A stretch of DNA of 64,000 nt, from positions 186,001-250,000 of the forward strand of contig NZ_JAERVJ010000001.1 of the NCBI RefSeq assembly GCF_016745395.1, written 5' to 3'. Made by a program: the position numbers and the translations under genes. Position 1 is the first letter of the stretch. Every line of letters starts with the position of its first letter. Shown here in pieces: positions 33,657-49,991 of the stretch. Source of the DNA: Methylocystis sp. Sn-Cys. GTDB lineage: Bacteria; Pseudomonadota; Alphaproteobacteria; Rhizobiales; Beijerinckiaceae. The notes under the pieces are model-generated. The model did not search any database. It saw nothing but the letters and a program-made list of their open reading frames with translations, and was not told the origin of the DNA.

Positions 33657-34538
33657 CTACTCCTCGGACGCTGCGGCGCCTTTGAATTTTACCGGGACAA
33701 GGAGCCGGCGGACGCCGTCCGGTCCCGGCGGCGGGAAGCGGCCGGCGCGGATATTCACTTGGATGGATGGCAGCAGAAGACGGGGCGCCGCTAGCGCCTG
33801 ATCCCGCTTCTGGCGGTCTGCGACGAACTCATCTTCACTCACCCCTTCCTTTATCTGCACGTTTTTCGCGCGCTCCTCGGCGACCGTCGCCTCCCAACGA
33901 TAGAAATCACGGCCGGGCGCTTTGTAGTCGTGGCACATGAAAAGGCGCGTCTGCGGCGGCAGGGCCAGCAGGCGGCGGATCGACCGGTAAAGCGCCCGCG
34001 CGTCTCCCCCCGGGAAATCAGCGCGGGCGGTTCCGTAATCCGGCATGAACAGCGTATCCCCGACAAAGACGGCGTCGCCGATCTTGTAGGAGACGCAGGC
34101 GGGCGTATGCCCCGGCGTATACAAGACCTCTATGTCGATCTCGCCGAGCGGCAGGCGCTCGCCGTCCTTGAACAGCCGGTCGAAGTCGCGGCCCGCGGGC
34201 GCGATGTCGTCAGCCAAAAATACTGGGCGGAATATGTCCTGGACCTCGATGATATGCTCGCCGATGCCGACTTGCGAGTCGGTGGCGGCTTTCACTATTG
34301 GCGCGGCCGAGAGATGGTCGGCATGTGCATGGGTTTCGAGAACCCACGCGATCGTCAGCCCTTCTTCGCGCGCGACGGATAAAACGGTTTCGATCCCGCG
34401 TGTGTCGGCAATGCCCCCGCCCGGCTCGAAATCGAGCACGGGGTCGATAATCGCGGCCGTCTTGGTCGCTGGATCGGACACGAGATAGGTGATGGTAAAG
34501 GTGGCTTCGTCGAAGAACCCCCTGATCGTCGCCGACAT
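33657..34538 (-). CDS. blh: Blh/persulfide-dioxygenase-like metallo-beta-lactamase-fold hydrolase
   Basis: A 293-residue MBL-fold protein. The metal motif is THAHADHL, with further ligands in TPGHTPACVSY and GDTLF, and MCHDY near the C-terminal third, as in the glyoxalase-II/ETHE1 branch. Blh proteins of this kind accompany BigR in Agrobacterium and Xylella and act on glutathione persulfide or related sulfane sulfur. It is divergent from a TauE exporter across 92 bp that contains the shared sulfide-regulon motif. The ATG giving MSATIRGFF is the family start. No rhodanese domain is fused; a separate rhodanese lies near 49.7 kb. Confidence 0.82.
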   Translation of the reverse strand: MSATIRGFFDEATFTITYLVSDPATKTAAIIDPVLDFEPGGGIADTRGIETVLSVAREEGLTIAWVLETHAHADHLSAAPIVKAATDSQVGIGEHIIEVQDIFRPVFLADDIAPAGRDFDRLFKDGERLPLGEIDIEVLYTPGHTPACVSYKIGDAVFVGDTLFMPDYGTARADFPGGDARALYRSIRRLLALPPQTRLFMCHDYKAPGRDFYRWEATVAEERAKNVQIKEGVSEDEFVADRQKRDQALAAPRLLLPSIQVNIRAGRFPPPGPDGVRRLLVPVKFKGAAASEE

Positions 34539-34572
34539 GTTTTCTCTCCGTCGCGCGCTTGCTTGCCGCAAG

Positions 34573-34597
34573 CATATATGCGAACTATCTAAATAAG
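34573..34597. promoter_or_regulatory. Candidate sulfide-regulon operator, blh/tauE site
   Basis: Reads CATATATGCGAACTATCTAA followed by ATAAG, one of four sites aligning without gaps (others at 43255, 44582 and 44950). On the blh strand it overlaps a possible promoter TTGCTT-16 bp-TATATG. It could serve both divergent genes. Confidence 0.6.
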
Positions 34598-34630
34598 CAA
34601 TATCTAATGTTGTGATCCAGAGGATCGCCG

Positions 34631-35419
34631 ATGCTGACGCCGTTTGTGATGAAACTTGCCGCCGGCGCGCTCTCCGGCGTCTTCGTCGGCTTTACGCTCG
34701 GACTCATCGGCGGCGGCGGCTCGGTTCTCGCCGTGCCGCTTCTCGTCTATTTCGTCGGCGTGCCGGAGCCTCATATCGCCATCGGCACGAGCTCTGTCGC
34801 TGTGTCGGTCAACGCCGTCTTCAACCTCGTCAACCACGCCCGATCGGGCGCGATCAAATGGCGTTGCGCCTCGGTCTTCGCCCTTTTCGGCGCGTTCGGC
34901 GCCTTTGGCGGCTCGAGCCTCGGCAAGCTCATCAATGGCGAGAAGCTGCTCGCCCTCTTCGGGCTTTTGATGCTTGTCGTCGGCGCGCTGATGTTCCTGA
35001 ACCGACGCGGGCAGGGCCATCCCCAGGTGCGGCTGAGCCGCGAGAATTTCCCGCGCCTCGCCGCAACGGGCGCCGCGACCGGCGCGCTTTCCGGGTTCTT
35101 CGGCGTCGGCGGCGGCTTTCTGATCGTTCCGGCCCTGATGTTCGCGGCCAATCTGCCGATCCTCAACGCGATCGGCTCCTCGCTTGTTTCGGTCACGGCC
35201 TTCGGCGTAACGACGGCGGCTAACTATGCGGTCTCCGGTCTGGTCGACTGGGCGCTCGCGGGCGCGATCCTCGGCGGCGGCGTCATCGGCGGCATGATCG
35301 GCGCGGCGACCGCGCGCCGCCTTTCCGCCCAGCGCGGCACGCTGGCGACAGCCTTCGCCGGGATCGTCGTCACTGTCGCGCTTTATGTTATCTGGCGGTC
35401 GGTCGGGTCGCTGGCCTGA
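34631..35419 (+). CDS. TauE/SafE-family anion exporter
   Basis: A 262-residue inner-membrane protein with about eight hydrophobic segments arranged as two related halves. Family glycine motifs are GLIGGGGSVLAVPLLVYFVG in the first half and GFFGVGGGFLIVPALM in the second. Members export sulfite or other organosulfur anions. Divergent from the persulfide-related blh gene and sharing its control region, it probably removes sulfite produced by persulfide oxidation. The stop abuts the stop of the convergent exonuclease gene. Confidence 0.85.
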   Translation: MLTPFVMKLAAGALSGVFVGFTLGLIGGGGSVLAVPLLVYFVGVPEPHIAIGTSSVAVSVNAVFNLVNHARSGAIKWRCASVFALFGAFGAFGGSSLGKLINGEKLLALFGLLMLVVGALMFLNRRGQGHPQVRLSRENFPRLAATGAATGALSGFFGVGGGFLIVPALMFAANLPILNAIGSSLVSVTAFGVTTAANYAVSGLVDWALAGAILGGGVIGGMIGAATARRLSAQRGTLATAFAGIVVTVALYVIWRSVGSLA

Positions 35420-36199: not shown

Positions 36200-36239
36200 G
36201 AAAGACTCCTGATAGAGCGCGGCGGGCCCGCTCGTTCGG

Positions 36240-36758: not shown

Positions 36759-36823
36759 CTCTTTCTCCCCACTCGAATGGCTGAGCCTAGCGCGCTTTCT
36801 CCAAGACCCGCCAGAGCAAATCG

Positions 36824-38410
36824 TCACGGCCGCGCTTTCGGCGGCAGCGTCAGAACCTGACCCTTTTTCAGTCTCCCTTCATGCACGCCCGGATTTGCCG
36901 CAGCGATCTCACGCCAGCGCGCGACGCTGCCGTATTTTTTCTTGGCGATGCGTGTCAGCGTATCGCCGCGCTGGACGACATATGTCTCGACAGTCGCCGT
37001 CGCTGGTTCCGCCTCCAGCGGGCAAGGCGCAGCGGACGGCGCGGCTTCTTTCGGCGCCGGCGGCGGCGTGCCGGGCTCCACCACGTCGAATTCGCCGCGC
37101 ATCATGCCCATCCAGCAGCTCCAGGGAATCACGCCGGCTTTTTGTGGCGTGAAGTCGATGGTCTGGAGCCCCGGCTTCAAATCGAATTCGAGGCCAAGCG
37201 CCGGCACGACAATGCGATGATTGCACTGGGTGATGCGCGTGGCGTTGATCACCCATTTGACCGGCGCGCCGCGAATGAGCGTGAAGCGGGAAGGCGTGAA
37301 ACCGAGCGCATTCGCCTCCATCTCGATCGTCTGCGCGGCGGGAGCGGGCGCCGGGACGCTCGTTGCGATCGGCGCGGCGCCTCGCTGCATCCGCGCCACG
37401 ACAGAATCGAGATCGACGCCCCAGCCAGTGAGGATGAGCCCGCGATTGATCATCACCGCGCCGAGCGCGACGACGATCACGCCCGAGGATTTCAGCAGGC
37501 GGTGCGTCAGCGCATTCGAGAGCATCGAGGCGATGACGCCGAAGGCGAGCATGACCGGCAGCGTGCCGAGCCCGAAGGCCAGCAGCATTTTCGCGCCCTC
37601 AATGGCGCTGCCGGTTCCCGCGGCCATCACATACATCGCCTGCAAGGGGCCGCAGGCGATCATCAAGCCGTTGAGGAGACCAATGACAAAGGGTCGGTGA
37701 CGTCCGCTCGCCTCGCGATGCACCCAGCGTTCGAGCGGCGCAGGCAGGGCGAGGCGAAAGCGCCGCAGCGGCGCGAACAGGCCCAGCATATTGAGCCCGA
37801 AGATGATGAGAAAAGCGCCCGCCGCCACGCCCGCCGCACCCCGCAACAGCGGCGTGAAGGCGATGATGGCGCCCAGCGCGCCGAAGCCAGCGCCGATCGC
37901 TGTATAGGACAGCGTTTTGCCGGCGCCGAAAGCGAGATGCGAAAGGAGCGACGAGCGGCCCGCGCGCGCATCCCCGGCCGTGTAGCTCACGACGAAGGCG
38001 CCGCACATGCCGATGCAGTGGAAGCCCGTGACGAGCCCGAGAAGGAAGATGAGCCACAGGCTCATATGCTGCGCAATGTCGGGGGAGCCGTGCGCGCTGA
38101 TCCATTGGGTGTCGACGTAGATCAGCCCTGCGAGACCGGCAGCGGCGGCGCCGAATAATGCAAGCCGTTGCAGCAGCGGCTTTTCGCGCCGCTCACCAGT
38201 TTCGACGCGATAACCATTTTCCTCGACGCTGTCACGTATCGCGTCGAAACTTAACGCCTGAGGATCGAAGTCGACCGTGACCGTTTCGGTCGGATAGCTG
38301 GCGACGGCGCGGCGCACGCCAGGAAGTCTTCGCAGACTCCTTTCGATAATGTGCTCGCACCCATGACAATGCATGCCATGGGCGCGAAAAATGACCGTCT
38401 CGTCGCCCAA
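36824..38410 (-). CDS. Four-part membrane fusion: HMA, UreH/SafE-like membrane domain, cupredoxin-like domain, LysM
   Basis: A 528-residue protein. Residues 1-70 are a heavy-metal-associated domain with the metal motif MHCHGC. Residues 110-330 carry about six hydrophobic helices with the signature GFHCIGMCGAFV of the UreH/SafE/CcdA-like membrane family (COG2836 type). Residues about 360-440 look like a cupredoxin, with likely copper ligands in CNHRIV and SCWMGMM. Residues 478-525 are a LysM domain (YVVQRGDTLTRIAKKKYGS). HMA-membrane-cupredoxin proteins are known near cytochrome oxidase assembly genes; the added LysM is unusual and would place the C-terminus at the peptidoglycan. It is encoded just after the cyd and DUF2892 genes. 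Confidence 0.82.
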   Translation of the reverse strand: MGDETVIFRAHGMHCHGCEHIIERSLRRLPGVRRAVASYPTETVTVDFDPQALSFDAIRDSVEENGYRVETGERREKPLLQRLALFGAAAAGLAGLIYVDTQWISAHGSPDIAQHMSLWLIFLLGLVTGFHCIGMCGAFVVSYTAGDARAGRSSLLSHLAFGAGKTLSYTAIGAGFGALGAIIAFTPLLRGAAGVAAGAFLIIFGLNMLGLFAPLRRFRLALPAPLERWVHREASGRHRPFVIGLLNGLMIACGPLQAMYVMAAGTGSAIEGAKMLLAFGLGTLPVMLAFGVIASMLSNALTHRLLKSSGVIVVALGAVMINRGLILTGWGVDLDSVVARMQRGAAPIATSVPAPAPAAQTIEMEANALGFTPSRFTLIRGAPVKWVINATRITQCNHRIVVPALGLEFDLKPGLQTIDFTPQKAGVIPWSCWMGMMRGEFDVVEPGTPPPAPKEAAPSAAPCPLEAEPATATVETYVVQRGDTLTRIAKKKYGSVARWREIAAANPGVHEGRLKKGQVLTLPPKARP

Positions 38411-38452
38411 AGATCCACGCCTCGCCGCCGGCGTCGACTGAAAACGAATCTG

Positions 38453-38638
38453 CTATTTGCCCAGCGTATTCATGCCCAGAAGCTTGTAGGCCGGACAGAA
38501 ATTGATGAAGGCCGTAGCGAGGGGCACAAGTCCGATAAAGCCCCAGGCCGTCTTCGGACCGATAAAGGCAAGGCTGAGCAGCACGAGACCCGCAATGATA
38601 CGGATGATTTTATCCGTCTGGCCGATATTCGCTTCCAT
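38453..38638 (-). CDS. DUF2892 small membrane protein (YgaP-type membrane domain), first of two
   Basis: A 61-residue protein with two hydrophobic helices around a Gly-Pro turn (IIAGLVLLSLAFIGPKTAWG) and a conserved FCPAYKLLG ending. It corresponds to the membrane part of YgaP, where it is fused to a rhodanese. Here it stands alone between cydX and the HMA fusion gene. A GTG one codon upstream could also start it; the ATG is preceded by AAGGTAGGG. A role in sulfane-sulfur export or handling is inferred from YgaP and from the neighbourhood. Confidence 0.8.
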   Translation of the reverse strand: MEANIGQTDKIIRIIAGLVLLSLAFIGPKTAWGFIGLVPLATAFINFCPAYKLLGMNTLGK

Positions 38639-38738
38639 CACGACCCTACCTTGGTTTTTGTTCCCAAAAGATATGCGTCGCCGCGGCCAATGCCATCAGC
38701 GACTTTGTCGCCAAAAGGCCGCGGCGCATCGTCGCGTT

Positions 38739-38843
38739 TTACTTGCGGCGCTCGTCGTCGTCGTCGAGCTCCAGCCACATGGCGTTGAGGATGCCAAAGG
38801 CGCAGGCGAGCCCTAGGCCGAGGATCCAGGAAAAATACCACAT
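38739..38843 (-). CDS. cydX: Cytochrome bd oxidase small subunit CydX
   Basis: A 34-residue single-helix subunit that stabilises heme binding in the bd oxidase. The sequence starts MWYFSWILGLGLACAFGILN, nearly the family consensus, followed by AMWLE and an acidic tail. GAAAGGAG lies seven bases before the ATG. It follows cydB by 13 bp, as expected. Confidence 0.93.
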   Translation of the reverse strand: MWYFSWILGLGLACAFGILNAMWLELDDDDERRK

Positions 38844-38856
38844 GCCGCTTCTCCTT

Positions 38857-39993
38857 TCAGTAATAGTGATCGTCGCCTTTTTCGATCGCCGCCTCGCGCA
38901 CCGCGCCGCGCAACACCCAATAGACCCATGAGGTATAGGTAAGCACGATCGGGAGGAAGAAGAGGGCCGCGACGAGCATGAGGCCGAGAGTGGCCTGGCT
39001 CGACGACGCATCCCACACGGTCAGGCTCTCGTCCGGATGGGAGGACGAGGGGAGCAGGAAGGGAAACAGGCTGAAGCCCGCCGTCGTCACGACGCCCGCG
39101 ACAGAGACGCTCGAGGCCAATATAGCGAGCGGCGAACCGATCGCCAGCAGGATCGCGGCGCCGAGCGCGCCGAGAAGGGCGGCGAGCGGCGCAAATGCGG
39201 CAAGCGGAAAGCGTGCGTAATTGAGGAGCCACTCGCCGGCGCCGGCCACGACTGTCTTGCCGAAGGGGTTGGACGGGCCGGCGTAATTAACGTCCGACTC
39301 GATTCGATAGCCCTCGATTCCGGTGGCGATCCAGAGCCCTCCCGCCAGAAGCAGCAAGACAAGCGCCAGCGCGGCGGCCGCGCCGATGCCCCGCGCCCGC
39401 GCGTTGATCTCGCCTTCCGTCTTTCCCGCGAGCCAGGCGGCCCCCTGCATGAACAACATCACCGCGCTCACGATCCCGCAAAGCAGCGCGAAGGGATGCA
39501 GCAAGCTGAGAAGGTCGCCCTCATATTGGAAGCGCAGCGACTGATCGAAATGGAAGGGGACGCCCAGCAGCAGATTGCCGAAAGCGACGCCGAACAACAC
39601 CGACGGCAAGGCGCCCGAGACAAAAAACAGCCAGTCCCAGGTCGCGCGCCAGAGCGGCTCGTCCCGCTTGCTGCGAAAGGTGATGGAGACAGGTCGCAGG
39701 ATAAAGCCGATCAGCACCAGCAGCATCGCCAGATAGAAGCCCGAGAAGGAGGCGGCGTAGAGCGGCGGCCAGGCGGCGAAGACCGCGCCGCCGCCGAGAA
39801 TGAACCAGACCTGATTGCCTTCCCACACCGGGCCGATCGTATTGATCAACACGCGGCGCTCGACATCCTTCTTGGCCACGAAGGGGTGCAGCAGGGCGAC
39901 GCCGAGGTCGAAGCCGTCGAAGATGGCGAAGCCGACGAGCAGCACGCCGAGGAGCGCCCACCAAATGAAGCGCAGGGTCGCATAATCGAACAT
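38857..39993 (-). CDS. cydB: Cytochrome bd ubiquinol oxidase subunit II
   Basis: A 378-residue multi-pass inner-membrane subunit of the quinol-oxidising bd-type terminal oxidase. The start (FIWWALLGVLLVGFAIFDGF, DLGVALLHP) and the GPVWEGNQVWFILGGGAVFA block are diagnostic. It is 12 bp behind cydA and 13 bp ahead of cydX, in one transcription unit. bd oxidases have high oxygen affinity and, in characterised bacteria, are not inhibited by sulfide, which matters given the sqr gene upstream. Confidence 0.96.
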   Translation of the reverse strand: MFDYATLRFIWWALLGVLLVGFAIFDGFDLGVALLHPFVAKKDVERRVLINTIGPVWEGNQVWFILGGGAVFAAWPPLYAASFSGFYLAMLLVLIGFILRPVSITFRSKRDEPLWRATWDWLFFVSGALPSVLFGVAFGNLLLGVPFHFDQSLRFQYEGDLLSLLHPFALLCGIVSAVMLFMQGAAWLAGKTEGEINARARGIGAAAALALVLLLLAGGLWIATGIEGYRIESDVNYAGPSNPFGKTVVAGAGEWLLNYARFPLAAFAPLAALLGALGAAILLAIGSPLAILASSVSVAGVVTTAGFSLFPFLLPSSSHPDESLTVWDASSSQATLGLMLVAALFFLPIVLTYTSWVYWVLRGAVREAAIEKGDDHYY

Positions 39994-40005
39994 ATGGCGT
40001 TCCTT

Positions 40006-41580
40006 TTAGCGCGAGGCGTCGAAGGCGGGTTGCGCTTCGGGCAAAGCGCCGGCCAGCGGTGGGGCTGCAGGCGCGGGATGCGGGCCCTTGCGAATATATT
40101 TGAGGAGCAGCGCCACATCGACAGCGGCGAGCGCCGTGTAGAAGATGACAAAGGCCGCGAGGCTCGCCGCGACATTGGAGGCGGGCACGCTCGAAACGCC
40201 GACGAAGGTCGGCATCACGCCGTCGATGATCCAGGGCTGGCGGCCATATTCGGCGACGATCCAACCGAGCTCGGCCGCGATCCAGGGCAGGGGAAGGCTG
40301 AACATGGTCAGCCGCAGGAACCACGGCTGGCCGCAGCGCCGCTGGCTGGAGAGATAAAAGGCGACGCCGAAAAGCGCGATGAAATAGAAGCCGAGCGCCA
40401 CCATGATGCGGAAGCTCCAGAAGAGAACCGGCACGTCGGGGACGGTCGAGAGCGCCGCCTGCTTGATCTCGTCCTCGGTGGCGTTCTCGATGTCGGGGCG
40501 AATGCGCTTGAGCAGCAGCGAATGGCCGACGTCGCGCATCGAGCCTTCGAGCTGCGGCGGCACGGAAACGCCAACGCGGCCGCCCTCCTGGGTCATCCAT
40601 ATATAGCCGGGAAGTCCGTTGCGGATGCGCTCTGCATTGTGCTCGACAAGCGGCTTGATGCCTTCGACGGGCTTGTCGAATGAGCGCGTCGCGATGAGGC
40701 CCAGGACATAGGGGATTTCAATCGCATATTTGGTCGTCTGGGTCTCGAGATCGGGCAGGCCGAAGAGCGTGAAGGACGCCGGCGCGGGCTCCGTCTCCCA
40801 CATCGCCTCGATGGCGGCGATCTTCATCTTCTGGTTCTCACCCGCCGTATAGCCGCTCTCGTCGCCGAGCACGACGACCGACAAGGCGGACGCAAGGCCG
40901 AAACTCGCGGCGACCGTCAGCGAACGGCGCGCAATCTCGATGTGCTTCTTGCGCAGGATGTAATAGGCGCCGATCGACATCACGAACATGGAGCCGGTCA
41001 CATAGCCGGCGCTGACCGTGTGGACGAATTTCGACTGCGCCACCGGATTGAACAGCACCTCCAGGAAGGAGCTGAGCTCCATGCGCATCGTCTGCGGATT
41101 GAAGGCGGCGCCGACGGGATTGGACATCCAGGCGTTGGCGACGAGAATCCAGAGCGCCGAGAAATTGGAGCCGAGCGCGACGAGCCAGGTGACGACAAGA
41201 TGCTGCACCTTGGTGAGCCGCTTCCAGCCGAAGAAAAAGAGGCCGACGAAAGTCGCCTCCATGAAAAAGGCCATGAGCCCTTCGATGGCCAGCGGCGCGC
41301 CGAAAATATCGCCGACATAATGGGAGTAATAAGCCCAGTTCGTTCCGAACTGGAATTCCATGGTGATGCCGGTCGCGACGCCCATCACGAAATTGATGCC
41401 GAACAGCGTGCCCCAGAATTTGACCGCGTCGCGCCAGACTTCGCGCCCCGTCATCACATAGACGCTCTCCATGATGGCGAGCAGCAAGGCGAGACCCAAA
41501 GTGAGCGGCACAAAGAGGAAGTGGTATAGAGCCGTCAGCGCGAATTGCAGACGGGAAAGTGTGACGACGTCGAAGTCCAT
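40006..41580 (-). CDS. cydA: Cytochrome bd ubiquinol oxidase subunit I
   Basis: The 524-residue heme-bearing subunit (hemes b558, b595 and d). The heme His are visible in ALYHFLFVPLTLGL and FVHTVSAGYVTGS; the quinol-loop segment with ENQKMKIAAIEAMWET is of the long, E. coli-like type, in keeping with the length. WSFRIMVALGF contains the axial-Met region. I start at MDFDVVTL, the family start, rather than eight codons upstream. It is preceded by cydP and sqr on the same strand. Confidence 0.96.
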   Translation of the reverse strand: MDFDVVTLSRLQFALTALYHFLFVPLTLGLALLLAIMESVYVMTGREVWRDAVKFWGTLFGINFVMGVATGITMEFQFGTNWAYYSHYVGDIFGAPLAIEGLMAFFMEATFVGLFFFGWKRLTKVQHLVVTWLVALGSNFSALWILVANAWMSNPVGAAFNPQTMRMELSSFLEVLFNPVAQSKFVHTVSAGYVTGSMFVMSIGAYYILRKKHIEIARRSLTVAASFGLASALSVVVLGDESGYTAGENQKMKIAAIEAMWETEPAPASFTLFGLPDLETQTTKYAIEIPYVLGLIATRSFDKPVEGIKPLVEHNAERIRNGLPGYIWMTQEGGRVGVSVPPQLEGSMRDVGHSLLLKRIRPDIENATEDEIKQAALSTVPDVPVLFWSFRIMVALGFYFIALFGVAFYLSSQRRCGQPWFLRLTMFSLPLPWIAAELGWIVAEYGRQPWIIDGVMPTFVGVSSVPASNVAASLAAFVIFYTALAAVDVALLLKYIRKGPHPAPAAPPLAGALPEAQPAFDASR

Positions 41581-41706
41581 TGCGACTGTCCTGCGTTGGC
41601 GCAAGCTGCCGGAAAGGGAGACGCGCCCCTCCGGTCAGAGCCTGCTCGGCGGCCTTGCGAGATGTCTCCTGGCTCGCGGGAAGCGAGAGACACCGCAATA
41701 TTCGAA

Positions 41707-41868
41707 TCAGCGCGGTTGCGGCTTCTCCAGGAGCGCCGCAGCCATGTCGGCCGGCGTCACATGGATGCGATGCGCCGGGCTGAAGAACAGAAAATAAAGC
41801 AAGAAGATTGCCGCAACTTTGACAATGATCGCGACGGTCAGTTCGCGGCGGAGGGTGCTGCGCGGCAT
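41707..41868 (-). CDS. cydP: CydP-like small membrane protein of bd oxidase loci
   Basis: A 53-residue protein found between sqr and cydA. It has a basic N-terminus (MPRSTLRRELTVAIIVKVAA), one hydrophobic helix ending FLLYFLFFSPAHR, and a short periplasmic tail. This matches the CydP type of accessory protein encoded beside cydAB. GAGGAA lies about ten bases before the ATG. Its position 65 bp after sqr and 126 bp before cydA ties the two together. Confidence 0.8.
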   Translation of the reverse strand: MPRSTLRRELTVAIIVKVAAIFLLYFLFFSPAHRIHVTPADMAAALLEKPQPR

Positions 41869-41933: not shown

Positions 41934-43214
41934 TCAGAGAACGCGACGCAAGCGCTCGATTCCGATCAGCTTCATGATGTAGCGTTCGTAAACCGGCTCG
42001 CTCTGTCCGTTGCGCACCTTACGCAAGAAGTATTTCTCATATGCGACTTTCGCCCAGTGCACCCAGCGGCCCTGGCTCGACCAGTTGACGTTGCGCGGCG
42101 GAATTTGCGGCTGGGCGACGAAGGCGACGCCGCGATCGCCGAAATCCGCGAGGCAAACGGCGTTCCAGGTGCCTTCTTCCTTCGGCTCCTTACCGTTGAT
42201 GACCGCCGCGATGTTGTGGGCGGTCGCCGTCACCATCGATTCGATCATATAGCCCGTTTTGGGCATGCCCGTCGCGACAGGAGTCGGCTCGGCCGGCGGG
42301 ATGGCGACGCAGACGCCGACGCCGAAGACGTTTTTGAAGGTCGGATTGCGCTGGTTCTTGTCGATGATGACGAAGCCGCGCGGGTTAACCAATCCTTCAA
42401 TTCCCATCAAGGCGTCGATGCCCGTGAAGGCCGGCATCATCATCGCGAATTTGAAGGGGAGCTCATGCTCCTTCTTCACCGAGCCGTCGTCGTTCAGCTC
42501 CTGGCATTTCAGGACGCCCGGCTCCACCGAGGTGGTTTTGGCGTTGGTGATCCATTTGACGTCGCGATCACGAAAAGCCGATTCGAGCAGGCCCTTGGTG
42601 TCGCCGACGCCGCCGAGACCCAGATGGCCGATGTAGGGTTCGGAAGTGACAAAGGTCATCGGCACCTTGTGGCGGATGCCGCGCTTGCGCAGATCCGACA
42701 CGATGATCATCGCATATTCGTAGGCGGGGCCGAAGCACGAGACAGCCGGCGACGCGCCGATAACGATCGGGCCGGGATTTTCGCAGAATTCTTCCCAGGC
42801 CTTCGAGGCGATTTCGGCGTGCTGCAGCGTGCAGATCGAATGCGTATGGCCGCCATGCGGGCCCAGCCCTGGGATTTCGCCGAAAGCGAGCTTGGGCCCC
42901 GTCGCAATGACGAGATAGTCATAGGAAATGCTCTCGCCGTCATTGAGCTCGATGCGGTTTTCCGCCGGATGCACGCGCTTGGCGCCGACATCCGTGAAGT
43001 CGATGTTCTTCTTCTTGAAGACCGGCGCGAGCGGCACCTTCAATTCATCGGGCTTGCGCCAATTGACCGCAAGCCAGGGATTTGACGGCGTGAACTGAAA
43101 GTTCGGCAGATCGGAAATAACGGTGACCTTGTGCTCCTTCTTCAAGGATTCGCGCACTTCGATCGCCGCCGCGACGCCGCCGATGCCGGCGCCGAGAACC
43201 ACCACGTGAGCCAT
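41934..43214 (-). CDS. sqr: Sulfide:quinone oxidoreductase
   Basis: A 426-residue FAD enzyme, peripheral on the inner membrane, oxidising sulfide to sulfane sulfur and passing electrons to quinone. The FAD motif is VVVLGAGIGGVAAA; FTPSNPWLAVNW, ATGPKLAF and SEPYIGHLG are typical of bacterial SQRs such as that of Acidithiobacillus ferrooxidans. The three redox cysteines correspond to C128 (SICT), C160 (VSCFGPAYEYAM) and C354 (NAVCLADFGDRG). The C-terminal amphipathic ending is present. cydP and cydAB follow on the same strand, so quinol can be reoxidised by the bd oxidase encoded next door. The sulfide-regulon motif lies about 40-65 bases upstream. Confidence 0.95.
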   Translation of the reverse strand: MAHVVVLGAGIGGVAAAIEVRESLKKEHKVTVISDLPNFQFTPSNPWLAVNWRKPDELKVPLAPVFKKKNIDFTDVGAKRVHPAENRIELNDGESISYDYLVIATGPKLAFGEIPGLGPHGGHTHSICTLQHAEIASKAWEEFCENPGPIVIGASPAVSCFGPAYEYAMIIVSDLRKRGIRHKVPMTFVTSEPYIGHLGLGGVGDTKGLLESAFRDRDVKWITNAKTTSVEPGVLKCQELNDDGSVKKEHELPFKFAMMMPAFTGIDALMGIEGLVNPRGFVIIDKNQRNPTFKNVFGVGVCVAIPPAEPTPVATGMPKTGYMIESMVTATAHNIAAVINGKEPKEEGTWNAVCLADFGDRGVAFVAQPQIPPRNVNWSSQGRWVHWAKVAYEKYFLRKVRNGQSEPVYERYIMKLIGIERLRRVL

Positions 43215-43254: not shown

Positions 43255-43279
43255 GTTATATTCGAACTAGCTAAATTAG
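43255..43279 (-). promoter_or_regulatory. Candidate sulfide-regulon operator, sqr site
   Basis: Plus strand GTTATATTCGAACTAGCTAA then ATTAG, aligned without gaps to the sites at 34573, 44582 and 44950. On the sqr strand it overlaps a possible -10 TATAAC. It is the only AT-rich patch in the gap between the regulator gene and sqr. Confidence 0.65.
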
Positions 43280-43296: not shown

Positions 43297-43965
43297 TTAG
43301 TCACGCTCAGCGTCGCAAAGCGCGCGCAAAGCCCCTGCGTCGGTGATTTCTGTTCCTCCGCGCGATAGTTTGACCCAGCCCGAACGCTCGAACGTCTTGA
43401 GCGTGCGCCCGACAACTTCCCGCGCCGTTCCAAGATCGGCCGCGAGCGCCTGCTGAGTGACGCAAATGCGATTGTCGGCGCCGCGCAAGGCGAGCAGCCG
43501 CTCGGCGAGCCGCACATTGATGCGCGTGCAGACGATCTCTTCGATGCGGCACATCAGCGTGGCGATGCGCCGGCTGTAGCCGTCGAAAACGAGCGCGCGA
43601 AAGCCTTCCGAAGCGTTCATCAATGCGGCGAAGCGCTCGGCAGGCACGATATAAGCGACGACATCCGTCTCGGCGACGCCCTCCGCCGCATAGGCGTCGT
43701 CGGAGAGCAGCGAAGCGGTCGTGAGAATGCAGGTCTCATTGGTCGAGACGCGGTAGAGCACGATCTCGCGCCCCGATTCCGTCACGCGCTGGACGCGGAC
43801 GGTTCCCGACACGATCAAGGGAAACTGTACACACTGGTCGCCGGGACGGAAAAGCACAGCGCCGCGCGGGATTTGCTTGCGGATGGCCGCGTCGCGCAGC
43901 ATCGCCTTGGTCGGCCCGTCGAGCGCGCGCAGGAGGGGGACATCCTCGATCCAGTCAGACGCCAT
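43297..43965 (-). CDS. Crp/Fnr-family transcriptional regulator
   Basis: A 222-residue regulator with an N-terminal cyclic-nucleotide-binding-like barrel (RGAVLFRPGDQCVQFPLIVSG) and a C-terminal winged HTH in which QQALAADLGTAREVVGRTL is the recognition region. It lacks the N-terminal four-Cys cluster motif of true FNR; single Cys occur in QCVQF, ETCIL, LMCRI and IVCTR, so thiol sensing is possible. It lies between the DUF2892 and sqr genes, in the same orientation, and may add an oxygen or redox input to the sqr-cyd unit. Confidence 0.85.
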   Translation of the reverse strand: MASDWIEDVPLLRALDGPTKAMLRDAAIRKQIPRGAVLFRPGDQCVQFPLIVSGTVRVQRVTESGREIVLYRVSTNETCILTTASLLSDDAYAAEGVAETDVVAYIVPAERFAALMNASEGFRALVFDGYSRRIATLMCRIEEIVCTRINVRLAERLLALRGADNRICVTQQALAADLGTAREVVGRTLKTFERSGWVKLSRGGTEITDAGALRALCDAERD

Positions 43966-44029: not shown

Positions 44030-44230
44030 TCAGAAGGCCGATCCCGGTCTTACGCCGATGCGCTTGAGTATCAAGGCCAAAGGGCAAAAGCCGGTAAAGG
44101 AGGCCTGCAACATATTCGCCCCGACAAAAGCAGCGAGAGCCATCCACCAGGGCGAAAACAGATAAGCCAGCGTTACGCTCGCGAGCACCATCGCGCCGGC
44201 GACAGCCATGACCATGCGATCGACGTTCAT
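44030..44230 (-). CDS. DUF2892 small membrane protein, second copy
   Basis: A 66-residue protein with two hydrophobic segments (VMAVAGAMVLASVTLAYLF and a second around WWMALAAFVGANML) and the conserved FTGFCPLALILKRIG, the membrane part of YgaP-type rhodaneses. It follows the BigR-type gene. An alternative ATG four codons upstream (44242) overlaps the regulator's stop as TGATG; I prefer the internal ATG because GGAG lies seven bases before it, but either gives the same protein body. A link to sulfane sulfur is inferred from the context and from YgaP. Confidence 0.8.
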   Translation of the reverse strand: MNVDRMVMAVAGAMVLASVTLAYLFSPWWMALAAFVGANMLQASFTGFCPLALILKRIGVRPGSAF

Positions 44231-44241
44231 GGAACGCTCCA

Positions 44242-44592
44242 TCAGTTGCGCGCCCGCGGGCGCTTCTTGGGCCGGCTGCGCGCATTGCATTCGTCCGCGC
44301 AGAACAATTCGTAAAGCAAGCCGATAAAACGCGAGACGTTGTCATCGGCGAGCGAATAGAAGATCGACTGCGACTCGCGCCGCGTTTTGACGAGCTTGTC
44401 GTCACGCAGCCGGGCGAGATGCTGCGAGAGGGAAGACTGGCTGAGGCCAATCGTCTCCTGGAGCTTGTTCACCGACAGCTCGCCCTTGTGCAATTCGCAC
44501 AGGACCATGAGCCGGTGTCGATTGGCGAGGGCCTTCAAGAAGCTTTCAGCCTCTTCGGCCTTTGGCGCAAGATCGGCTGGGTCTATATTCAT
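44242..44592 (-). CDS. bigR: BigR/SqrR-type ArsR-family persulfide sensor
   Basis: A 116-residue winged-helix repressor. The recognition helix region is LSVNKLQETIGLSQSSLSQH, and the wing reads KTRRESQSIFYSL. Cys32 (LMVLCELH) and Cys98 (ELFCADEC) are 66 residues apart, exactly the spacing of the two reactive cysteines of BigR (42 and 108) that form a disulfide or polysulfide link to release DNA. A third Cys is at 102. A shared AT-rich motif overlaps its start codon, suggesting autorepression. A consensus promoter would start transcription at about the ATG, so the mRNA may be leaderless. A longer frame from a TTG (44628) is less likely because it would cover that promoter. Confidence 0.88.
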   Translation of the reverse strand: MNIDPADLAPKAEEAESFLKALANRHRLMVLCELHKGELSVNKLQETIGLSQSSLSQHLARLRDDKLVKTRRESQSIFYSLADDNVSRFIGLLYELFCADECNARSRPKKRPRARN

Positions 44593-44606
44593 GATCTCTA
44601 AATTAA
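44582..44606 (-). promoter_or_regulatory. Candidate sulfide-regulon operator, bigR site
   Basis: Plus strand TCTATATTCATGATCTCTAA then ATTAA, aligned to the sites at 34573, 43255 and 44950. It spans the bigR start codon and the -10 element of its predicted promoter. Confidence 0.6.
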
Positions 44607-44628
44607 GTTTGACGCATATATGTGTCAA
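44600..44628 (-). promoter_or_regulatory. Predicted sigma-70-type promoter of bigR
   Basis: On the minus strand TTGACA, a 17-base spacer and TAATTT, seven bases before the ATG. The -35 half lies in a near-perfect 20-base palindrome, TTGACGCATATATGTGTCAA on the plus strand (44609-44628), which might be a second regulator site. Confidence 0.6.
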
Positions 44629-44655
44629 GCATCAAATTGACCGCGGAGGACTGTC

Positions 44656-44845: not shown

Positions 44846-44949
44846 GCTCGGCCCCGATCGACCGCGCCCACTCATGCTACATTCGGCGGACCGGATCAGA
44901 TCGTTCCGAATGCAAGCGCCAACAGCAGCAGCTTTTAAATTCGTTCTTG

Positions 44950-44974
44950 CTAATTTACGTGTATCGAATATATC
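44950..44974 (+). promoter_or_regulatory. Candidate sulfide-regulon operator, RND operon site
   Basis: CTAATTTACGTGTATCGAAT followed by ATATC, the reverse complement of the motif at 34573, 43255 and 44582 and in the same orientation relative to its gene as at sqr and bigR. It overlaps a possible promoter TTGCTA-16 bp-TATATC, 27-50 bases before the adaptor gene. Confidence 0.6.
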
Positions 44975-45000
44975 TGAGCAGCGACAGCGTGGGAGACTTC

Positions 45001-45969
45001 ATGAATCGCTTCCGACTCGCTTTTCTTTTGATCACCCTCGCGGCGCCGTCCGCCGTCTGCGCCGGCGAAACCGCCGTTCACATCGCGCCGATCGACGATA
45101 TGAAGGCGGTCGTCGCTTCCGTCGAACCCGCGCATCAGCTTATCGCCCGCGCCCGCATCGGCGGCACAGTGACGACGCTCAAGATCAAGGAAGGCGACAA
45201 TGTCGCCGCCGGAGCCGAGATCGCGCTTGTTGCGGACCAGAAGCTTTTCTTGCAGATGCAGTCCCTCGATCAGCGCATTCGCGCCCAGCAGGCGCAGCGC
45301 GACAAGGCCCAAAGCGACTTCGATCGCGCGCAGGAGCTTCTACGCCGCGGCACCTCGACAAAAGTGATGGCCGATCAGGCGAAGACCGCGCTCGACGTCG
45401 CCGAGCGCACTCTCGCCGCGCTGCAATCCGACCGCGGCGTCATCGAGCAGCAGACGGCGGAAGGCTCGGTGAAGGCGCCGGGCGCCGGCCGCATCCTGAC
45501 GATCCCCGTCTCCATCGGCCGCGTGGTGATGCCGGGTGAAACCATCGCGACGCTCGCCGAGGACAGATACATCCTGCGCCTGCAACTGCCGGAGCGCCAC
45601 GCCCGCTTCATGCGCGCGGGCGATCGCGTCGAGATCGGCGAACGCGGCGTCAACACGGGCGCCGGCGCCCGCAAGGAAGGGCGCGTGCGCATCGTCTATC
45701 CCGAAATCCAGGGCGGCCGCGTGATTGCCGACGTCGATGTGAAAGGGCTGGATAATTATTTCGTCGGCGAGCGCGCCCGCGTCTATGTGACGACCGGCAA
45801 GCGCGACACGATCCTTGCGCCGAAATCCGCGATCTACCGGCGGGCGGGCGTCGATTTCGTGCGCCTCGCGGACGGCGCCGAAGTGGTCGTGCAGACCGGC
45901 GACGCGCATGGCGACGCGATCGAGATTCTCTCGGGCCTGCATGACGGCGATGTGGTGCACACGCCATGA
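45001..45969 (+). CDS. RND pump periplasmic adaptor (HlyD/AcrA family)
   Basis: A 322-residue membrane-fusion protein. A signal peptide ends near residue 20 (APSAVCAGE; the Cys is not in a good lipobox). The lipoyl half-motifs flank a coiled-coil of roughly residues 80-125 (LQMQSLDQRIRAQQAQRDKA...), and GRVVMPGETIATLAED is typical of the second lipoyl half. The ATG after GGGAG gives the signal peptide. It overlaps the pump gene by four bases. The operon has no outer-membrane channel gene, so a TolC-like partner must be encoded elsewhere. Confidence 0.88.
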   Translation: MNRFRLAFLLITLAAPSAVCAGETAVHIAPIDDMKAVVASVEPAHQLIARARIGGTVTTLKIKEGDNVAAGAEIALVADQKLFLQMQSLDQRIRAQQAQRDKAQSDFDRAQELLRRGTSTKVMADQAKTALDVAERTLAALQSDRGVIEQQTAEGSVKAPGAGRILTIPVSIGRVVMPGETIATLAEDRYILRLQLPERHARFMRAGDRVEIGERGVNTGAGARKEGRVRIVYPEIQGGRVIADVDVKGLDNYFVGERARVYVTTGKRDTILAPKSAIYRRAGVDFVRLADGAEVVVQTGDAHGDAIEILSGLHDGDVVHTP

Positions 45970-48900
45970 GCCAGGAAAAGGAAAACGCCGAGGAATTCCA
46001 CCCCGGCATCAGCGGCACGCTGACGCGGACCTTCATCAATTCGCCGCTGACGCCGCTTCTGCTCCTTGCCTCGATTCTCGTCGGCCTCATCGCGCTGCAG
46101 GCGCTGCCGCGCGAGGAGGAGCCGCAAATCTCCGTGCCCATGGTCGACATCATGGTGCAGGCGAACGGCTACAAGGCGGAAGACGCGATCGAGCTCATCA
46201 CCCGTCCGCTCGAAGACATCATCAAGGGCGTCAATGGCGTCGAACATGTCTATTCGCAGACGCGCGACGATCAGGTGATGGTGACGGCGCGCTTCTTCGT
46301 CGGCACGCCGCAGGACAACGCCGTGCTGCGCGTGCACGATAAGATTCGCGCCAACATACTCGACTTGCCCAAAGGGATTCCCGAGCCGGTCATCATCGGC
46401 CGCGGCATCGACGACGTCGCCATTGTGGTTCTCACACTCTCCGCCAAGCCCGAGCGCGCCACTCAATGGACGGATAACGGCCTCTATCAGGTTGCAGCGG
46501 AACTGCAGCACGACCTCACCAAGGTCGAGAATGTAGGCTTGAGCTATATCGTCGGCGGCAGCCCCAATCAGATTCGCGTCGAGGCCGATCCGGAGCGCCT
46601 GTCGCAATATGGCGTGACGCTCAACCAGCTCATCGACAAGCTCACCAACGCCAACCGTTCCTTCATGGTCGGCGCCTTCCGCGAGGACAACCACTCCATC
46701 CCCGTCGTCGCCGGTCAGACGCTGCAGGGCGTGCCGGACATCGGCCTGCTGCTGCTGACGACGCGCGACGGGCGCCCGGTCTATGTGAAAGACGTGGCGA
46801 ATGTCATCGTCGGCGCCGCCGAGCCCGACAAGCGCAGTTGGACGATGACCAAGGAGAAAGACGGCGCGCTCTTGAAGCGCCCGGCCGTCAGCATCGCCAT
46901 CGCGAAGCGCAAGGGCGCCAATGCGGTGATCGTCGCCGAGGACGTGTTGCATCGGCTGGAGTCGGTCAAAGGCCGCATCGTCCCCGAAGATTTGGAGATC
47001 GCCGTCACCCGCAACTATGGCGAGACCGCCACGGAGAAGGCGAACGAGCTTCTCTTCCATCTGGCGCTCGCGACCGTCTCCATCGTTCTGCTCATCGTCG
47101 TGATGGTGGGCTGGCGCGAAGGCGTCGTCGTCTTCGTCATCATCCCGACGACGATCCTGCTGACCCTCTTCGCCTCCTGGCTGATGGGCTACACGATCAA
47201 CCGCGTCAGCCTGTTCGCGCTTATTTTCTCCATCGGCATTCTCGTCGACGACGCCATCGTCGTCGTGGAGAACATTGTTCGCCACTGGCAAATGCGTGGC
47301 GATCGCAGCCTGATCGACACCGCCGTTGAGGCCGTCGCGGAAGTCGGCAATCCGACCATCGTCGCGACCCTGACGATCATCGCCGCGCTTCTGCCGATGA
47401 TGTTCGTCTCGGGTCTGATGGGGCCCTATATGAGCCCCATTCCGGCCAACGCCTCGCTGGCCATGGTCTTCTCCTTCTTCGTCGCCATGACGATCACGCC
47501 CTGGCTTCTGTTGAAGATCGCCGGCAAGCGTTTCGAACAGGAGGGCGGCGCGGGCCATGACCACTCCCACGAACGCGGCGCCATGGGCAATTTCTACGCC
47601 CGCATCGCCACGCCCTTGCTGCAGGGCCGCAAGCGCTCGCAACGCTTTCTCACCGCTGTCGGCGTGGCGACGCTGCTCTCGCTCGGCCTCTTCGCCACGA
47701 AGAGCGTGCGCGTGAAGCTGCTGCCGTTCGACAATAAGTCGGAAGTCGCGGTGGTCGTCGATCTGCCGCGCGGGGCTTCGCTCGAGGAGGCGGATCGCGT
47801 GCTGACAGCCGCGGCCGAGCGCCTCAAGGACATTCCCGAGCTCACCTCCATCCAGTCCTATGCCGGCGCGGCGGCGCCCTTCAACTTCAACGGCCTTGTG
47901 CGCCATTATTACGTGCGCTCGGCGCCGGAGATGGGCGATCTCGCGATCAACCTCCTGCCCAAGGACGAGCGCAAGCGCGCCAGCCACCCGATCGCTCTGG
48001 AGATTCGCGAGAAGCTCAAGGGCCTCCCCATGCCCGAGCATACAGCGATCAAGGTCGTCGAAGTGCCGCCCGGCCCACCCGTGCTCTCGACGCTTCTCGC
48101 TGAAGTCTATGGGCCGGACGCGCAGACGCGGCGCGACCTCGCGACCAAGCTGCGCAAGGCCTTCGACGCGGTCGATTTCGTGGTGGACACGGATGACAGC
48201 TTCGGCCAGCGCGCGGAGCGGCTGCGCTTTGCGATCGACCAGGAGGCGCTCGAATATCACGGCGTCGAGGAGCGCGCGGTCTATGACACGATCGGCGCTC
48301 TCGTGGGCGGCGTGAAGATCGGCTTCTCGCAACGCGGCGGCGGGGCCAAGCCCATCGACATCACCGTCGCTTTGCCACGCTCACAGATGACGCCCGGCGA
48401 GCGCATTCTCTCGACGCCGCTTCCCGCCGGCGGCACGGTGCGACAGGGCGCCAATGTCGAACTCGGCGATGTGGTGAAGGCGACGCGCGAGCTCGGTTCC
48501 TATCCCATCTTCCGCCACAACGGCCGCTTCGCCGAAATGGTAAGCGCCGAGGTCGCCGGCCGTTTCGAGGCGCCGATCTACGGCATGTTCGCGGTCGAGG
48601 ACGAGATCAACAAGATCGACTGGGGCCCCTCGGGCGCGCCGACGATCAAATATCACGGCCAGCCGCTCGACGACGCGAAGCCGACCTTCCTTTGGGACGG
48701 CGAGTGGGAGGTGACCTATGTGACCTTCCGCGACATGGGCGCGGCCTTCATGGTCGCTCTGCTCGGCATCTATCTGCTCGTCGTCGCGCAATTCGGCTCG
48801 TTCAAGCTGCCGCTGGTCATTCTGGCGCCAGTGCCGCTCACGCTCGTCGGCATTGTGCTGGGCCATTGGCTCTTCAACGCCGCCTTCACGGCGACGTCGA

Positions 48901-49244
48901 TGATCGGCTTCATCGCGCTCGCCGGCATCGTCGTGCGCAATTCGATCCTGCTCGTCGACTTCATCCGCCATCTGCGCGAGCGCGGCATGTCGCTACGCGA
49001 AGCATTGGTCGAGGCGGGCGCGGTGCGCTTCAAGCCGATCTTCCTCACCGCCGCGGCGGCGATCATCGGCGCGGCCTTCATCCTCACCGACCCGATCTTC
49101 CAAGGTCTCGCCATCTCGCTCGTCTTCGGCCTGGCGTCCTCGACGGCGCTGACGCTGCTCGTGATCCCGGCCATCTATGTCGTCCTGCGCGACGACCAAC
49201 GCCCACCGGCGCCAGGCGCGCCGCAAGGAGGGAAGCTCGCATGA
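45966..49244 (+). CDS. RND-family efflux permease
   Basis: A 1092-residue inner-membrane proton-driven exporter with the standard two-fold layout: a first helix at 22-40, a large periplasmic loop, six helices near 350-530, a second periplasmic loop and six terminal helices from about 920. The proton-relay Asp pair is in GILVDDAIVVVENI. A His-rich insert (GHDHSHERGAMG) links the halves. It is not clearly of the CzcA or AcrB subclass. The operon also encodes an AhpD-like protein and a rhodanese, and its promoter carries the sulfide-regulon motif, so the substrate may be a sulfur compound; this is inference. Confidence 0.9.
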   Translation: MSQEKENAEEFHPGISGTLTRTFINSPLTPLLLLASILVGLIALQALPREEEPQISVPMVDIMVQANGYKAEDAIELITRPLEDIIKGVNGVEHVYSQTRDDQVMVTARFFVGTPQDNAVLRVHDKIRANILDLPKGIPEPVIIGRGIDDVAIVVLTLSAKPERATQWTDNGLYQVAAELQHDLTKVENVGLSYIVGGSPNQIRVEADPERLSQYGVTLNQLIDKLTNANRSFMVGAFREDNHSIPVVAGQTLQGVPDIGLLLLTTRDGRPVYVKDVANVIVGAAEPDKRSWTMTKEKDGALLKRPAVSIAIAKRKGANAVIVAEDVLHRLESVKGRIVPEDLEIAVTRNYGETATEKANELLFHLALATVSIVLLIVVMVGWREGVVVFVIIPTTILLTLFASWLMGYTINRVSLFALIFSIGILVDDAIVVVENIVRHWQMRGDRSLIDTAVEAVAEVGNPTIVATLTIIAALLPMMFVSGLMGPYMSPIPANASLAMVFSFFVAMTITPWLLLKIAGKRFEQEGGAGHDHSHERGAMGNFYARIATPLLQGRKRSQRFLTAVGVATLLSLGLFATKSVRVKLLPFDNKSEVAVVVDLPRGASLEEADRVLTAAAERLKDIPELTSIQSYAGAAAPFNFNGLVRHYYVRSAPEMGDLAINLLPKDERKRASHPIALEIREKLKGLPMPEHTAIKVVEVPPGPPVLSTLLAEVYGPDAQTRRDLATKLRKAFDAVDFVVDTDDSFGQRAERLRFAIDQEALEYHGVEERAVYDTIGALVGGVKIGFSQRGGGAKPIDITVALPRSQMTPGERILSTPLPAGGTVRQGANVELGDVVKATRELGSYPIFRHNGRFAEMVSAEVAGRFEAPIYGMFAVEDEINKIDWGPSGAPTIKYHGQPLDDAKPTFLWDGEWEVTYVTFRDMGAAFMVALLGIYLLVVAQFGSFKLPLVILAPVPLTLVGIVLGHWLFNAAFTATSMIGFIALAGIVVRNSILLVDFIRHLRERGMSLREALVEAGAVRFKPIFLTAAAAIIGAAFILTDPIFQGLAISLVFGLASSTALTLLVIPAIYVVLRDDQRPPAPGAPQGGKLA

Positions 49245-49624
49245 CCAATGATTGGCCCGAACTCGCCAAGACGCTCTCGGCAGACCTTCGCAATCTGCGC
49301 GTCGGCGCGCCCGATGTGATGAAGACCTTCTCCGCCATGGCGACGACCGCCGGCGCCCCCGGCGCGCTCGACGCCAAGACGAAGGAGCTGATCGCCGTCG
49401 CTGTGAGCGTCGCGGTGCGCTGCGACGATTGCATCGCCTTCCACACAAAGGCCGCCTGCCAGCGCGGCGCGACGCGCGAGGAGATTTTGGAGACGCTCGG
49501 CATGGCGATCTACATGGGGGCCGGCCCCTCGGTGATGTACGCGAGCCATGCGCTTTCGGCTTTCAATCAATTTGCCGGCGGCGAAGCCGGCGGCGCGCAA
49601 ACCCCTCAAGCGAAAACCGCTTGA
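49241..49624 (+). CDS. Carboxymuconolactone decarboxylase/AhpD-like protein
   Basis: A 127-residue helical protein of the CMD/AhpD superfamily. The redox motif CDDCIAFH (CxxC followed by His) marks the thiol-active branch, related to AhpD alkylhydroperoxidases. AAGGAGGG precedes the ATG, which overlaps the permease stop as ATGA. Placement between an RND pump and a rhodanese suggests it reduces or relays a thiol, persulfide or peroxide rather than acting on aromatic lactones. Confidence 0.85.
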   Translation: MTNDWPELAKTLSADLRNLRVGAPDVMKTFSAMATTAGAPGALDAKTKELIAVAVSVAVRCDDCIAFHTKAACQRGATREEILETLGMAIYMGAGPSVMYASHALSAFNQFAGGEAGGAQTPQAKTA

Positions 49625-49646
49625 GCAAGAAGAAAGGAAGAAGAAA

Positions 49647-49991
49647 ATGCTGTCAGGCCTGATGTCCAAGCTCACCGGAGGCGGCGGCGAATTGCCGACG
49701 ATCGAGCATGAGGATTTCGCCCGCCTCGTGAAAGAAGGCTCCTGCGCCATCGTCGATGTGCGCGAGCCGCATGAATATGCCGCCGGCCATGTGCCGGGCG
49801 CGCGCAATCTGCCGCTCTCGCAATTCGATCCGTCGAAGCTGCCGGCAGGCGATTGCGTGATCATCTGCCAGGCGGGCGGTCGCTCGGCCAAGGCGCTGGG
49901 GCAGGCGATCCAGGCCGGCCGCAAGAATGTGCGCCATTATGCGCCGGGCACCGGCGGCTGGCGCGCGCGCGGCGGCGCGGTGCAGGCGTAA
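49647..49991 (+). CDS. Single-domain rhodanese
   Basis: A 114-residue sulfurtransferase. The N-terminal 20 residues are Gly/Ser-rich; the rhodanese core follows with IVDVREPHEYAAGHVPGARN and the active loop CQAGGRS carrying the persulfide Cys. No membrane segment or signal peptide is present, so it is cytoplasmic. As the last gene of the RND operon it may pass sulfane sulfur from or to the neighbouring thiol protein. Two separate DUF2892 proteins in the region resemble the membrane half of YgaP, so the YgaP parts appear split here. Confidence 0.9.
   Translation: MLSGLMSKLTGGGGELPTIEHEDFARLVKEGSCAIVDVREPHEYAAGHVPGARNLPLSQFDPSKLPAGDCVIICQAGGRSAKALGQAIQAGRKNVRHYAPGTGGWRARGGAVQA

Follow-up and report, generated by a model that had tools for sequence, protein, structure and literature searches.

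A shared AT-rich box at four control regions of a Methylocystis sulfide gene cluster, a probable operator of one BigR/SqrR-type repressor

The genome of Methylocystis sp. Sn-Cys carries a cluster of sulfide-related genes in the 64,000-nucleotide stretch analysed here (positions 186,001 to 250,000 of contig NZ_JAERVJ010000001.1; hereafter the window, with positions counted from its first letter). The cluster holds genes for a persulfide dioxygenase-like protein (blh), a sulfite exporter (tauE), sulfide:quinone oxidoreductase (SQR; sqr), cytochrome bd oxidase (cydABX), a resistance-nodulation-division (RND) pump with its adaptor (mfp and rnd), and an ArsR-family regulator (bigR). This arrangement raises the question of whether genes standing behind separate control regions answer to a single sensor of sulfane sulfur. 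With a probability of roughly 0.86, we read an AT-rich box common to four of these control regions as the operator recognised by a BigR/SqrR-type repressor (gene at 44242-44592), which would hold down four units and be released from them by persulfide.

The shared box and its recurrence

A preliminary description of this DNA had placed four AT-rich sites of common design at blh/tauE (34573-34597), sqr (43255-43279), bigR (44582-44606) and the RND operon (44950-44974), and all four are present there. As it had claimed, they are AT patches in GC-rich DNA (the 25-bp stretches have 20–28% G+C versus 64.3% in the window) and the box has the same orientation relative to the bigR, sqr, blh and RND genes; tauE is divergent from blh, so that the box is reversed as viewed from tauE. 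The common core of the proposed pattern also held, while its variable stretch, given as six bases, proved to be seven. The exact 22-bp core common to the four sites is TATATKCR-N7-TAAATWA, found on the plus strand at 34575-34596 (blh/tauE, between the divergent genes), 43257-43278 (sqr) and 44584-44605 (bigR), and on the minus strand at 44951-44972 (RND). Allowing up to three mismatches, we found seven matches in the window, compared with a mean of 0.56 and a maximum of 3 in 100 shuffles. The exact core occurs four times in the 4.02-Mb genome, always in the cluster. A more palindromic form, TAWATTC-N8-TAAWTTA, likewise has its 0- and 1-mismatch matches in the genome only in the cluster; the blh/tauE site is two mismatches from this form, as are several unrelated genomic places. 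There is no sign of a larger regulon elsewhere in the genome at the level of exact or 1-mismatch sites, none of which lies outside the cluster, and the 2-mismatch sites outside it number two, on contigs C14 and C15 (L074, L075).

Because the four sites themselves yielded the motif, non-circular evidence has to come from finding it again in other genomes. From 23 of the 31 BigR-bearing genomes of the genus we mapped stretches no longer than 20 kb, and from the other eight we took short stretches; a box was called when the relaxed pattern matched with up to two mismatches within 250 bp upstream of a gene; these genomes are related, so the counts are not independent. The motif search in related genomes that the preliminary description had proposed bears out the boxes at blh, tauE and RND, whereas at sqr a box was found in only 9 of 22 mapped genomes. 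All 31 BigR-bearing genomes have a box at bigR (23/23 mapped and 8/8 short stretches) and 20 of 22 mapped genomes have one at mfp, although the two regions overlap in G002 and each may there count the other's box (both pairs are present). The corresponding counts are 19/20 at tauE and 19/19 upstream of blh, one of the latter with two mismatches. At the same threshold no box stands ahead of cydA (0/20), cydB (0/20), the dsbD fusion gene (0/19), crp (0/21), ygaP (0/23), rnd (0/21), the rhodanese gene (0/19), or the carbonic anhydrase (0/12) and exo/endo phosphatase (0/19) genes. Across genomes, the box arms are 92–98% identical (blh/tauE n = 19, sqr n = 9, bigR n = 19, RND n = 16) and the inner seven bases 49–73%. 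Over the 30 bases to the left, identity is 39–45% in three of the regions (blh/tauE, sqr and RND) and 73% in that of bigR, whose left flank is coding; the 30 to the right (61–66%) include the second box at bigR and RND, the weak second box of blh/tauE and, in the case of sqr, the coding end of crp. Among the matches listed for 39 genus genomes at up to two mismatches, the pattern outnumbers its reversed control in 30 and equals it in 1 (hand count).

Rearranged genomes of the genus provide natural tests of a common regulon. In G031, blh/tauE (L076), bigR-ygaP-crp-sqr-cydAB (L077) and mfp-rnd-rhodanese (L078) are separated by 250 kb or more, and every one of the three is boxed. In G021 and G026, the RND genes follow cydB behind a boxed sqr-cydAB and mfp has no box; the only boxes (up to two mismatches) in these stretches are at blh, bigR and sqr. 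In G025, G033 and G034, bigR and the RND genes are divergent and have one common control region. BigR, SQR and RND are all present in 31 of the 39 genus genomes and all absent from 7, where the absences in five weigh little because these assemblies are 64–81% complete (the other two are at least 98% complete). G011 has SQR and RND and no detected BigR; its bigR may fall in a gap, as its RND and sqr matches start 675 and 914 bases into their contigs. Boxes that track their targets, the cases of G031, G021 and G026, and this co-occurrence together lend in silico support to the earlier suggestion of a single sensor over four units, and the comparative evidence favours one BigR-type repressor as the probable regulator of all four.

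Two control regions carry doubled operators. At bigR and at the RND operon, two boxes stand in opposite orientation, offset by 15 bp and with 7 bp in common. The bigR pair comprises the exact box 1 given above and box 2 at 44599-44620 (minus strand, one mismatch), both conserved; the RND pair comprises box 1 at 44936-44957 (plus strand, two mismatches to the strict pattern and none to the relaxed one) and the exact box 2. The blh/tauE region has a degenerate second box at 34590-34611 (minus strand), seen by eye from the consensus CTAAATAAGCAAtatCTAATgTt; it is weak (~4 mismatches), also offset by 15 bp, and TAAATAA is common to both boxes. By eye, sqr has one box only. In several genomes an extra degenerate, near-symmetric box (for example TATATTACGTATATCTAATTTA) was observed between the bigR and RND operators, ~100–150 bp upstream of bigR in L009, L010, L011, L012, L016 and L024, and also at L090:12195; none was seen there in the window.

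The bigR operator also meets the start of its own gene. Box 1 takes in both a -10-like TAATTT and the first codon of the gene (ATG, followed by AAT ATA), and a predicted promoter, TTGACA-N17-TAATTT, lies inside and beside the operator (44600-44628, minus strand). By eye, TTGAC followed 17–18 bases on by TAATTT or TAAATT is present in 19/19 and a further 8/8 genus genomes. A simple promoter scan of the window did not list it (3 hits versus 2.7 expected); terminators numbered 17 versus 13.8 expected, and no RNA family in the window reached its gathering threshold. The -10-like element ends 7 bases ahead of the bigR start codon in the window, so the bigR mRNA may be leaderless or nearly so. The gene begins with ATGAAT within the box in 19 aligned genus genomes and 8 further ones; among four more distant members this start is kept in G033 and G007, not in G025 and G034. 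Outside the genus, 17 of 74 bigR-like loci have an in-frame ATGAAT start, ~12 of these 17 with operator-like sequence by eye. Mesorhizobial relatives carry a literal ATTC-N8-GAAT at the equivalent place, overlapping the bigR start, which suggests that the box here is related to operators of the SqrR class, ATTC-N8-GAAT being quoted as the SqrR site in the available part of PMC9774250.

For the wider view, named genomes were scanned with an RND alignment and the best 80 of 575 confirmed relatives were taken, with neighbours sought in the fetched flanks at E <= 1e-6; some of these loci are truncated by contig ends. Boxes with up to two mismatches fall in bigR, mfp or sqr control regions in 47 of 60 cases (1.7 expected if uniform) and come from 32 of 75 loci; the literal SqrR form does so in 16 of 27 cases (14/75 loci).

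The sensor, the proposed switch and its rivals

The predicted bigR product (44242-44592, minus strand) is an ArsR-family protein of 116 amino acids and a probable sulfane-sulfur sensor. Profile matches place it among the ArsR/SmtB winged-helix regulators (Pfam HTH_5, 36.4 bits versus a cut-off of 22; NCBIfam HTH_metalloreg, 88.5 versus 55), and its relatives in the PDB include BigR (3pqj), SqrR (6o8k), YgaV (3cuo) and HlyU. Its cysteines, C32 and C98, are 66 residues apart as previously described, and they align with the SqrR-chain cysteines. Every one of the 55 aligned BigR sequences, from 54 loci plus the window, retains this pair, which does not hold for a third cysteine, Cys102. By these features, the putative sensor is a member of the BigR/SqrR subfamily, though no strict BigR by the NCBIfam model. 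A paralog encoded elsewhere in the genome (L087:8462-8884) has 140 amino acids, an N-terminal extension and both sensor cysteines; by eye, its neighbours resemble ABC transporter genes and a threonyl-tRNA synthetase gene.

We consider the proposed regulatory switch very likely to be real; DNA binding, persulfide release and direction of control are inferred from the BigR/SqrR literature (PMC9774250, PMC9995734, PMC5823870, PMC10451225 and PMC12423496, each available in part). At low sulfane sulfur, BigR dimers would sit on the boxes at the four control regions, over or next to promoters, and repress bigR-ygaP-TM-Crp-like, sqr-cydABX, blh/tauE and mfp-rnd-rhodanese. When sulfide enters, persulfides would link Cys32 and Cys98, BigR would leave the DNA, and all units would be switched on. 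SQR would then oxidise sulfide into the quinone pool, which cytochrome bd, refractory to H2S according to the available text of PMC7315123, would reoxidise; the dioxygenase would convert persulfide to sulfite, TauE would export the sulfite, and the RND pump would export a sulfur- or stress-related compound, this substrate being a guess. We tentatively suggest, as a possibility at less than even odds, that this RND type forms a distinct subfamily which accompanies BigR and a small YgaP-type protein across Alphaproteobacteria and is devoted to exporting sulfane sulfur or what is made from it, such as polysulfide or organic persulfide, and that its expression is here coupled, by a single persulfide sensor, to the respiration of sulfide via SQR and cytochrome bd.

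Several observations weigh against this repressor-operator reading. With up to two mismatches, the genome has 8 matches, 6 of them in the cluster, and the reversed control pattern gives 5 and 6, so that loose matching alone is unremarkable in this genome. It is one of 8 of the 39 genus genomes in which the pattern falls below the reversed control (hand count, among the matches listed). The preliminary description had named a random genomic distribution as one outcome that would speak against a regulon: exact matches are confined to the cluster, whereas matches with up to two mismatches are no commoner than the control. The special class consists of the exact and 1-mismatch matches only. The literal SqrR consensus ATTC-N8-GAAT was tried as the operator and rejected, since its 46 genomic sites all lie outside the cluster; the operator here is accordingly a variant, and a near form, ATKC-N8-TAAW, is present in the cluster. 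The bigR product scores below the cut-off of the NCBIfam BigR equivalog (96.2 versus 155 bits), and a second BigR paralog, 65% identical, at C2:44440-44742 could share the sites. The sqr box is clade-specific and absent from 13 of 22 mapped genomes; nine genomes plus G007, G025 and G033 have an unboxed sqr, and G010 holds only a 4-mismatch remnant at that position. In the nine boxless genomes sqr could be read from the bigR promoter, since bigR, ygaP, crp and sqr follow one another on the same strand. In the named loci, cydA, cydB, blh, tauE and crp each stand near the RND type in just 1 of 80. The reversed pattern is also enriched there, in control regions in 9 of 19 cases (0.5 expected; 9/75 loci), so that part of the wider signal, though not all, is accounted for by AT-rich promoters.

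This last point belongs to a broader explanation, in which the patches are mere AT-rich promoter elements (-10 or UP-like) alike through their AT richness. The bigR box does overlap the promoter-like TTGACA-N17-TAATTT pair, and besides the enriched reversed control near starts there is the lack of excess of loose matches in this genome. However, nine other cluster genes have no box at up to two mismatches, the box arms are conserved with their C and G letters included, and exact matches in 4 Mb are confined to these sites, and we hold this explanation to be very improbable for the genus. Slightly less probable still, and unlikely in the extreme, is binding of the boxes by the Crp/FNR-type regulator whose gene separates ygaP-TM from sqr. 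That gene is present in 21 of 23 mapped genus genomes, but it is found near the RND genes in just the one named locus, and the boxes in the named loci adjoin bigR; the Crp/FNR consensus is also unlike the box.

More weight goes to the paralog, although we still consider it unlikely that the boxes are operators of several regulators under shared control, with the C2 protein binding alone or as a mixed dimer. Besides its 65% identity and both sensor cysteines, the paralog has a very similar recognition helix (by eye), and it has no obvious target of its own, since no box with up to two mismatches lies within the 18 kb around it (L087). Two such repressors on shared sites are discussed for Hyphomicrobium in the available part of PMC12423496. 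On the other hand, just 8 of the 39 genus genomes yield a second BigR-like match, and those with one BigR alone, such as G031, G010 and G022, still carry boxes. Rather doubtful, a little more so than the shared-control explanation, is the view that the RND operon is BigR-regulated but serves a metal such as copper, with sulfide disturbing copper in a probably copper-dependent methanotroph. Sulfide is reported to affect transition metal homeostasis in Acinetobacter baumannii (PMC7315123, in its available part), the adaptor shows a weak match to the CzcB model (83.5 bits versus a cut-off of 319), the permease one to the CusA/CzcA model (255 bits versus 701), and the cluster holds a fusion gene with HMA and cupredoxin domains in a genome with a PF02461 match. 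Against this, the permease scores higher with two multidrug RND subfamilies (429.7 and 333.8 bits; no subfamily cut-off reached), and the frequent neighbours of this RND type are bigR, ygaP-TM and sqr, also in taxa that are not known to be methanotrophs. Control of all four units by one BigR/SqrR-type repressor remains the reading we prefer.

Genes of the cluster and their wider distribution

The units appear larger than first described, as they include the cytochrome bd genes and the rhodanese gene. The blh product (33657-34538, minus strand) is a 293-residue persulfide dioxygenase-like protein of the metallo-beta-lactamase fold (Pfam Lactamase_B; best PDB matches 9g8t, 4efz and 4ysk). The NCBIfam Blh model covers it only at positions 142-420 of 423 (349 bits versus a cut-off of 625), and the N-terminal DUF442 sulfurtransferase domain of true Blh is missing, which makes it a stand-alone dioxygenase and not a bifunctional Blh. 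Divergently transcribed tauE (34631-35419, plus strand) encodes a TauE/SafE-family sulfite exporter (PF01925, 2.6e-50).

The product of sqr (41934-43214, minus strand) matches the solved sulfide-quinone reductase 3sz0 over residues 7-428 (2e-153), a full-length similarity. Beyond sqr, on the same strand, follow a 53-amino-acid peptide (41707-41868; an open frame with no Pfam match), cydA (cytochrome bd subunit I; 40006-41604, PF01654), cydB (subunit II; 38857-39993, PF02322), a cydX-like gene for a small cytochrome bd subunit (38739-38843; PF08173, 1.5e-16), a second small YgaP-like_TM protein (38453-38638; PF11127, 6.5e-23) and, beyond cydX, a fusion of HMA, DsbD_2, cupredoxin and LysM domains (36824-38401, Pfam). 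The 53-residue peptide is perhaps a CydP-like subunit. Gene order suggests that cydABX is read together with sqr. The position of the fusion gene is kept in many mapped genus genomes, and its membership of the regulon is uncertain. Between sqr and bigR, also on the minus strand, lie the genes for the Crp/FNR-family regulator (43297-43965; PF00027, PF13545) and the YgaP-like transmembrane protein, ygaP-TM (44030-44230; PF11127). On the plus strand, the RND unit comprises mfp, the periplasmic adaptor (45001-45969; TIGR01730, 114.9 bits versus a cut-off of 94.9), rnd, a permease of the AcrB/AcrD/AcrF Pfam family (45966-49244; PF00873, 6.2e-146) that reaches no NCBIfam subfamily cut-off, and a downstream rhodanese-domain protein (49548-49991; PF00581). 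A single strong match in the genome to PF02461, the methane/ammonia monooxygenase subunit A family, makes a methanotroph likely.

The nearest named relatives of the RND genes are in Beijerinckiaceae and Rhizobiales. Of the loci of the best 80 among 575 relatives, 60 have ygaP-TM close to this RND type, 54 have bigR, 29 sqr and 17 the rhodanese gene, counts that carry no control for the chance of bigR standing beside an arbitrary pump. When 20 bigR-like loci of other families in the order were taken as the starting point, RND genes and tauE were each close by in 2, blh in 3 and sqr in 1. The complete set thus characterises the genus (plus G046, L110), and the bigR-ygaP-RND pairing is wider, yet far from general. 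In L110, from another family of the order, tauE, bigR, cydBA, sqr, rhodanese, ygaP-TM, mfp and rnd are found in a different order, and no box was found there at up to two mismatches of the relaxed pattern.

Comparison with known systems

The locus offers a testable circuit with one putative sensor, a defined candidate operator, a sulfide-to-oxygen electron path via cytochrome bd and an RND pump, and the operator sequence enables regulon prediction in other genomes. How methanotrophs cope with sulfide is largely open according to the available part of PMC10205796, and in the titles and abstract openings searched we found no description of such a regulon in a methanotroph.

SqrR of Rhodobacter capsulatus is, like the regulator here, a two-cysteine ArsR-type repressor, and controls sqr and a rhodanese gene (PMC9995734, in part). 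Its operator, ATTC-N8-GAAT in the available text of PMC9774250, differs from the ATKC-N8-TAAW found here, which forms overlapping pairs in the bigR and RND regions; the boxed units of the cluster additionally encode cytochrome bd, the persulfide dioxygenase (PDO) and TauE, and the RND pump. The available part of PMC5823870 describes BigR of Xylella fastidiosa and Agrobacterium tumefaciens with Cys42 and Cys108, 66 apart like C32 and C98, and with an operon for a persulfide/sulfur dioxygenase and a TauE-related exporter, as here; their Blh has the DUF442 sulfurtransferase domain that is missing here, and the units here are spread over four control regions. In A. baumannii, BigR controls a PDO operon and sulfide induces cydAB, but the SQR operon is under FisR and, in the available part of PMC7315123, cydAB induction is not tied to BigR; here, sqr and cydAB stand behind a BigR-type box. 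The sHdrR/SoxR-type repressors of Hyphomicrobium and relatives belong to the same ArsR subfamily as BigR here. In a neighbourhood survey (PMC12423496, in part), the likely targets named for such regulators are sqr, pdo, rhodanese, TauE and RND pumps, and the link between RND pumps and regulators of this kind is therefore not new. Whereas that survey, in its available part, rests on neighbourhood, a shared operator sequence here joins the units, unlinked ones included. The present analysis adds evidence at the level of the operator, cases in which the units are unlinked or joined in one operon and, in a probable methanotroph, a link to cytochrome bd.

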